From Caldanaerobacter subterraneus (GTDB lineage: Bacteria; Bacillota; Thermoanaerobacteria; Thermoanaerobacterales; Thermoanaerobacteraceae), in assembly GCF_004345675.1 (NCBI RefSeq), contig NZ_SLWU01000016.1:1-64000 (forward strand): DNA of 64,000 nt, given 5' to 3'. The notes under the pieces were generated by a model that did no database searches, was not told where the DNA came from, and saw only the letters and a list, made by a program, of their open reading frames with translations. Positions 40,947-50,970 of the stretch are shown in pieces. Made by a program: the position numbers and the translations under genes. The first letter of the stretch is position 1, and each line of letters begins with the position of its first letter.

Positions 40947-40968
40947 GAGAGAGGGTTTTTCCTCTCTC
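40947..40968 (+). terminator. Terminator after the permease remnant
   Basis: GAGAGAGG (40947-40954) pairs with CCTCTCTC (40961-40968). A T-rich stretch (AGTTTATTTTAA) follows. Confidence 0.75.
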
Positions 40969-41017
40969 AGTTTATTTTAATTTCACCTAGAAAGTTTTAA
41001 TTTTTACGCGTATATGG

Positions 41018-41150
41018 TATAATAAAGGTGTACCTGTTATAGTAATTTGAAAGCTTTAAAAATCTCAAAAAAGCAGTACTGTTATACAGTGTATAAACAT
41101 CTGTTATATAATATAGCTGTTACACTGTATACTGTACTATAGCAGGTACA
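41018..41150 (+). promoter_or_regulatory. PFOR promoter and nested inverted-repeat leader
   Basis: A TATAAT at 41018-41023 is followed by a 122-base structure. The outer arms TGTACCTGTTATAGTA (41029-41044) and its complement (41135-41150) match at 15 of 16 bases. The inner arms TATACAGTGTA (41083-41093) and 41121-41131 match perfectly. CTGTTATA occurs at 41034, 41079 and 41101, and CTGTTACA at 41117. No clear -35 box is seen. It may be a multi-site operator, a structured leader RNA, or a small palindromic insertion. Confidence 0.6.
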
Positions 41151-41160
41151 ATTTTCTTAA

Positions 41161-44730
<3,570 letters not shown>

Positions 44731-49419: not shown

Positions 49420-49469
49420 TTGACAAAATAGTTTTATACTGTTATATTATAATATAACAGTATAAAACT
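49420..49469 (+). promoter_or_regulatory. YtrA-type operon promoter inside a perfect 40-bp palindrome
   Basis: TTGACA (49420-49425) and TATATT (49443-49448) are 17 bases apart. A perfect palindrome with arms 49430-49449 and 49450-49469 (each containing TACTGTTATATTA) spans the spacer, the -10 box and the likely start point. It is the probable operator of the GntR-type regulator encoded in the operon. Confidence 0.88.
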
Positions 49470-50613: not shown

Positions 50614-50970
50614 ATGTTAAGAAAAGTTGATAAACACAGTGGAGTACCTGCATATTTACAAATAGTAAACATGATAAAATCCGAAATTTTATTGGGAAAT
50701 CTCCAAAAAGGCGCTCAATTACCTTCCGTAAGAGATTTGCAGGTAATTTTCGATGTCAATATAAACACTGTATTAAAAGCACTGGAAAAACTCAAAAACG
50801 AAGGGTATATAGAATCAGAGCAGGGAGTCGGCTATTTTGTAAAAAAAGACATTGATGTAAACAAAGAAGTGATAGAGATAATAAGAGAATGTGTGTCAAA
50901 GCTCAAAAATGGCCGGATAGACTACTATACAGCAATGTTAATTTTTGAGGAGGTCTGGAAAAATGAATGA
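50614..50970 (+). CDS. GntR-family regulator, YtrA subfamily
   Basis: This 118-aa regulator is a GntR winged helix (residues 10-75: GVPAYLQIVNMIKSEILLG, LPSVRDLQVIFDVNINTVLKALEKL) followed by a short dimerisation helix. That short form defines the YtrA subfamily. Such regulators usually repress their own operon of ABC transporters until antibiotics or envelope stress appear. The palindrome at 49430-49469 is its likely site. Its stop codon overlaps the next start (ATGA). Confidence 0.9.
   Translation: MLRKVDKHSGVPAYLQIVNMIKSEILLGNLQKGAQLPSVRDLQVIFDVNINTVLKALEKLKNEGYIESEQGVGYFVKKDIDVNKEVIEIIRECVSKLKNGRIDYYTAMLIFEEVWKNE

Follow-up and report, generated by a model that had tools for sequence, protein, structure and literature searches.

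What reads the repeated boxes and nested inverted repeats that follow the promoter of the pyruvate:ferredoxin oxidoreductase (PFOR) gene in the window, i.e., the whole analysed stretch of 64,000 nucleotides? PFOR turns pyruvate into acetyl-CoA in the anaerobes considered here and forms the gate from glycolysis to acetyl-CoA, ferredoxin, hydrogen and ethanol in biofuel anaerobes. The first-pass annotation had described a -10 element, nested inverted repeats and four CTGTTAYA boxes before this gene, and it had offered three readings: an operator array for a shared regulator, a structured leader RNA, or a small palindromic insertion. All of the described elements are present in the sequence, with CTGTTAYA boxes starting at 41034, 41079, 41101 and 41117, and the region is organised as follows.

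41015-41023, + strand: extended -10 element TGGTATAAT of the PFOR promoter, assigned from the sequence and its conserved alignment (TATAAT at 41018-41023, extended by TG)
41029-41150, + strand: outer inverted repeat of 16 pairs (arms 41029-41044 and 41135-41150)
41034-41047, + strand: box 1, CTGTTATAGTAATT, with a perfect left half-site
41079-41092, + strand: box 2, CTGTTATACAGTGT, 45 bp past box 1
41083-41131, + strand: inner inverted repeat, 11 bp and perfect (arms 41083-41093 and 41121-41131), in the window genome only
41101-41114, + strand: box 3, CTGTTATATAATAT, 67 bp past box 1
41117-41130, + strand: extra box CTGTTACACTGTAT, the right arm of the inner stem, found in the window genome only among those compared
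41132-41145, + strand: box 4, CTGTACTATAGCAG, 98 bp past box 1, a hyphenated dyad CTGT-N6-GCAG overlooked in the first-pass annotation
41209-44730, + strand: single-chain PFOR, the putatively regulated gene (TIGR02176, 2030 bits), with the Shine-Dalgarno sequence GGAGAGGAG ahead of it

The position of the -10 element predicts a transcription start at about 41030, and conservation makes 41209 the most likely start codon. A strong bidirectional terminator lies at 40947-40968, between an upstream permease-like gene and the PFOR promoter, and PFOR is therefore probably transcribed from its own promoter.

The box core CTGTTATA occurs nine times in the 64-kb window, where 2.7 occurrences are expected, and the array itself is unique in the 2.58-Mb genome: no second copy was found, the best other blastn match covering 25 bases, and the paired-box pattern CTGTTATA-N{8,38}-CTGTTATA had no match in the genome outside the array. 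In a DNA similarity search with the PFOR upstream region, run without the box pattern, nine congeners and eight genomes of a second genus were recovered. The array stands upstream of PFOR in all 10 Thermoanaerobacter genomes and in all eight recovered Thermoanaerobacterium genomes, and in oriented alignments the boxes follow directly after the -10 element at equal offsets in both genera. Boxes 1 and 2 are degenerate in a single congener, G006. The fourth CTGTTAYA box (41117) and the inner stem are confined to the window genome among those compared. The comparison of PFOR upstream regions in relatives thus found the array in all congeners, and the idea of a small palindromic insertion is refuted, as the element occupies the same place in all of them, occurs in one copy per genome and has no empty site. 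In G008 and G009, a stretch resembling the PFOR leader (TATGGTATAATAAAGG...TCAAAAAAGC) lies upstream of a gene for a CBS-domain protein, with the boxes absent; considered as a second copy of the element, it was dropped as a weak match without boxes.

Beyond the two genera, further carriers were found in four families and one unclassified MAG. A two-box pattern search detected the array in another family of the home order (f2), where it precedes the gamma subunit gene of a four-subunit por operon, and wider scans placed it before four-subunit por operons in f41 and f92 (eight genomes) and in G431, a Clostridiales MAG (DUOD01000039), while in f55 it precedes a 2-oxoacid:ferredoxin oxidoreductase (OFOR) operon. 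Altogether, boxes at fixed offsets precede PFOR, por or OFOR genes in at least seven groups. Most chance matches of the box pattern fall in coding DNA. In the phylum scan outside the home order, two of nine loci were at por/OFOR operons, and a reversed-pattern control gave a similar match rate there; true occurrences are told from background by their position in front of one and the same enzyme. Of the non-coding matches in the order of G114, nearly all lie at por/OFOR operons. The array was not found in Caldicellulosiruptor por promoters, nor was a clear array found in the PFOR promoters of Thermoanaerobacterales g3 and f3.

The recurrences are not all independent, because the groups partly share ancestry at the bofA-por locus. 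In f2, f41, f55, f92 and the MAG, the gene order is recR-yaaL-bofA-[array]-por or near it. The Thermoanaerobacter and Thermoanaerobacterium arrays are at another locus, before the differently built single-chain PFOR. That the same geometry stands before differently built versions of the enzyme suggests control tied to the reaction, not to the gene lineage. The por/OFOR operon of f2, f41, f55, f92 and the MAG follows dnaX-ybaB-recR-yaaL-bofA, an old conserved neighbourhood whose genes were named by reading the sequences.

Aligned across lineages, the array comprises five 14-bp sites with the consensus CTGTNNTATAACAG, each keeping at least one half well. Their offsets from box 1 (41034 in the window) are -22 (-20 to -23), 0, +42 to +46, +63 to +68 and +92 to +98. 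The discovery pattern fixed only one box pair per lineage; the other offsets agree nonetheless, and the chance of each site falling in its offset window is approximately 0.01-0.04 in resampled sequences. Of the 27 arrays that were aligned on box 1, 26 read CTGTTATA there and that of G006 reads CTGTTAAA, and the CTGT of box 2 appears at +42 to +46 in 18 of 18 representatives. Box 0 overlaps the -10 element as CTGTTATA or CTGTTACA in f2, f41, f55, f92 and G431 and as CTGTGATA in Thermoanaerobacterium, and it is degenerate in Thermoanaerobacter (ATGGTATA). The left half is best kept in boxes 0-2, and both halves or the right half in boxes 3-4: box 3 in other lineages frequently forms the full palindrome CTGTNNTATAACAG or retains the right half of it, and several lineages preserve the opposite half, TATAACAG, in the downstream sites, as would fit a protein site with dyad symmetry. 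At a strict threshold, weak sites are box 2 in f92 and in G162/G286, box 3 in f2, G263 and G431, and box 4 in f41, f55 and G431. Compared pairwise, the lineages average 32% identity in the spacer and 100% in the box 1 core. Expressed in turns of 10.5 bp, the spacings drift (2.1, 4.3, 6.4 and 9.3), and strict phasing on one face of the helix is therefore not supported. At the level of sequence, these comparisons establish that the sites exist, that they are spaced in a fixed manner, that they recur across several lineages and that they are linked to the function of the enzyme. They likewise identify the boxes, not the hairpin, as the best-conserved part of the element.

Such sites could be read in DNA or in RNA. 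The second proposal of the first-pass annotation was a structured leader RNA. Such a leader, at the 5' end of PFOR mRNA, would act in the manner of a riboswitch or through an RNA-binding protein and set the stability or translation of the message. The structure begins approximately 4 nt past the predicted start, inside the predicted transcript, and in the window genome the RNA strand folds at -41.3 kcal/mol, compared with -23.9 +/- 3.1 for shuffled sequences (z -5.65); the fold of G007 is also strong (z -4.8). This strength is not conserved across relatives, with z near zero in G006 (+0.1), G015 (-0.5), G426 (+0.8) and G427 (+0.5) and weak values of -0.7 to -1.0 in G114, G162, G286 and G431. 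Congeners keep 12-14 of the 16 outer pairs, which speaks for an RNA, but only 9-13 of 18 inner-stem pairs, the inner stem itself being peculiar to the window genome. Thermoanaerobacterium alone yields a separate fold (RNAalifold, -32 kcal/mol); it differs in position from that of Thermoanaerobacter, and the common fold of the two genera amounts to almost none (-4.3 kcal/mol). Operator halves in inverted orientation would by themselves account for the better-kept outer stem: the left half-site is the reverse complement of the right one, so that box 1 forms the outer stem with box 4 in several lineages. No Rfam family above the gathering threshold was found for the leader, a permissive E-value search giving sub-threshold chance matches only, and no intrinsic terminator was found in it. 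One box, moreover, sits on the -10 element, outside the RNA. The strong fold of the window genome stands. A conserved fold with compensatory changes in the stems, which would have favoured RNA, is not borne out among the homologues, and we regard a leader RNA as unlikely, though not negligible.

Still less credible is a reading that takes the boxes not for regulator sites but for sigma-dependent pause sites or for the -10-like sequences of several promoters that overlap. It would draw on the resemblance of CTGTTATA to the extended -10 sequence TGNTATAAT and on the coincidence of box 0 with the -10 element; however, the final T of a -10 element is not kept in boxes 1-3 (TATATA, TATACA and others), whereas the outer C persists and the reverse half ACAG is retained at the downstream sites. 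We give this reading almost no weight.

DNA is favoured over RNA because a box lies on the -10 element, outside the transcript, in most lineages, because the downstream sites keep the reverse half, because the spacing is near-constant while the spacer sequence is free, and because the fold energy is not conserved. We infer that a DNA-bound protein reads the array. Recurrence of a dyad-symmetric site at conserved intervals across the promoter is the arrangement of an operator array for a dimeric factor, and the element is probably a DNA operator with several sites for a dimeric transcription factor apparently dedicated to PFOR. Against this reading, most of the region is predicted to be transcribed, an unusual location for this number of operator sites, and the degeneracy of box 0 in Thermoanaerobacter is also unfavourable. 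In the proposed mechanism, a dimeric factor would recognise the 14-bp dyad-symmetric consensus, in which one half-site may be weak. Its sites, at -22, 0, about +45, +67 and about +97, would reach across the -10 element and about 110 bases into the transcript. Bound dimers may cooperate, neighbouring sites being 22 or approximately 31 bp apart with one gap of 45, and the presumed outcome would be repression, with the -10 element covered and early elongation hindered. The signal might be pyruvate, acetyl-CoA, the redox state or the iron-sulfur supply, all of which are guesses.

Several known systems resemble this arrangement in part. Rex, the clostridial redox repressor, was reported by DAP-seq upstream of the Clostridium thermocellum PFOR operon Clo1313_0020-23 (PMC8457756), and its consensus in Thermoanaerobacterium saccharolyticum is NTTGTTANNNNNNTAACNNN, i.e., TGTTA-N6-TAAC (PMC5886521). 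The likeness lies in an AT-rich dyad with TGTTA/TAACA halves, in the control of fermentative redox genes and in PFOR being a target enzyme in another clostridium as well. In contrast, the array halves are arranged as TGTTA-N2-TAACA with an outer C, and five sites form a fixed array; membership in the Rex regulon was rejected, as the sites read CTGTNNTATAACAG and not the TTGTTA-N6-TAAC dyad. The CggR operator of gapA in Bacillus consists of two CGGGAC-type repeats, which are tandem and located downstream of the promoter, where binding can block elongation. The array resembles it in placing tandem sites past the promoter of a gene of central carbon metabolism, but differs in its motif, in having five sites rather than two repeats, and in that CggR is encoded in the operon it regulates. 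GlnR/TnrA boxes (TGTNA-N7-TNACA) likewise have TGTTA/TAACA halves and an AT-rich centre, but are 17 bp long, not 14 bp, with another spacing of the halves. PdhR, which controls pyruvate dehydrogenase in enterobacteria through a motif of the GGTNNNACC type, is a dedicated regulator of pyruvate oxidation and thus a possible working analogue, although enzyme and motif are different and FadR-type regulators do not track the array here.

No described motif matching the array was found in Rfam or in the literature searched, nor was a description of a matching regulator or of transcriptional control of PFOR in Thermoanaerobacter and Thermoanaerobacterium found in that literature; a full-text search for CTGTTATA gave nothing relevant among the matches listed. 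The recurrence of the array before PFOR in distantly related groups points to a widespread fermentation regulator. On balance, we lean towards an undescribed dedicated PFOR regulator in several clostridial orders, one that would read a fixed five-site array, preserved as a four-subunit enzyme gave way to a single-chain one. Being conserved over several orders, the cis-element may serve as bait in the search for this regulator, and since T. saccharolyticum is naturally competent, the array is directly testable there. No regulator gene conserved beside the array was found in the por/OFOR neighbourhoods of f2, f41, f55, f92 and the MAG, a result that counts against the operator reading.

One candidate for the factor is a FadR-type (FCD) GntR protein such as Tsac_0749 of T. 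saccharolyticum, which was repeatedly lost when the reoxidation of reduced ferredoxin was blocked and whose targets are unknown (PMC13277313). An FCD GntR occurs in every array-bearing genome tested and is absent from the array-less family member G011, and in G006, which alone among the Thermoanaerobacter genomes shows degenerate boxes, the sole copy is frameshifted. These correlations made the candidate attractive at first. However, the single FCD protein of the array-bearing f55 genomes and of G431 belongs to other subfamilies, with less than 45% identity to the Tsac_0749-like clade, while the array-less G021 and G024 possess that clade, and a clear fermentation phenotype was not reported for the Tsac_0749 deletion (PMC13277313). 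The candidate thus became unsupported, as no FCD subfamily is common to all array-bearing genomes, and we consider it very improbable that such a protein is the regulator of the array. The G006 frameshift lies near the 3' end of the gene (G006:C1:2188500-2193500) and may be a coincidence or a sequencing error.

A second candidate is encoded in the window itself, together with a palindrome.

49430-49469, no strand assigned: 40-bp exact palindrome over the promoter of the YtrA-type operon, judged to lie outside the PFOR array
50614-50970, + strand: YtrA-type GntR regulator (PF00392)

In this explanation, the YtrA-type GntR of the window, or another YtrA-type paralogue, would control PFOR through the common CTGTTATA half-site. 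As the first-pass annotation had pointed out, this core is indeed common to the PFOR boxes and to the palindrome at 49430-49469, and other YtrA-type loci have palindromes with similar half-sites, TGTTATAT or TGTACTAT. The palindrome is probably the YtrA-type regulator's own operator. Although YtrA-type operators share the half-site TGTTATA with the PFOR array, they consist of a single inverted pair over the regulator's own promoter and not of an array of 14-bp sites. The pair is TGTTATAT-N4-ATATAACA, where relatives have G at the outer position as often as C, and it is absent from the PFOR leader; in the window genome, CTGTTATA-N{0,12}-TATAACAG occurs only at 49439-49460. Among the 17 array-bearing Thermoanaerobacter and Thermoanaerobacterium genomes in which the orthologue was sought, seven that keep the array (G002, G007, G012, G013, G015, G016 and G018) yielded no close orthologue (85-91% identity), and no YtrA-type protein at E <= 1e-10 was found in the array-bearing G162, G286, G420, G426 and G431. 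With these orthologue absences and the different operator palindrome, YtrA was rejected as the shared regulator, and a role for it or a paralogue at PFOR seems a very long shot. Of the operator array for a shared regulator that had been proposed, the array is strongly supported by the fixed offsets in at least seven groups, whereas the window's YtrA as the protein that reads it is not. YtrA-type regulators of several paralogous groups lie behind long palindromes whose half-sites are near the por half-site, and two f2 genomes (G020 and G022) carry a short palindrome, CTGTTATAATATAACAG, just upstream of a MATE-type-transporter-like gene.
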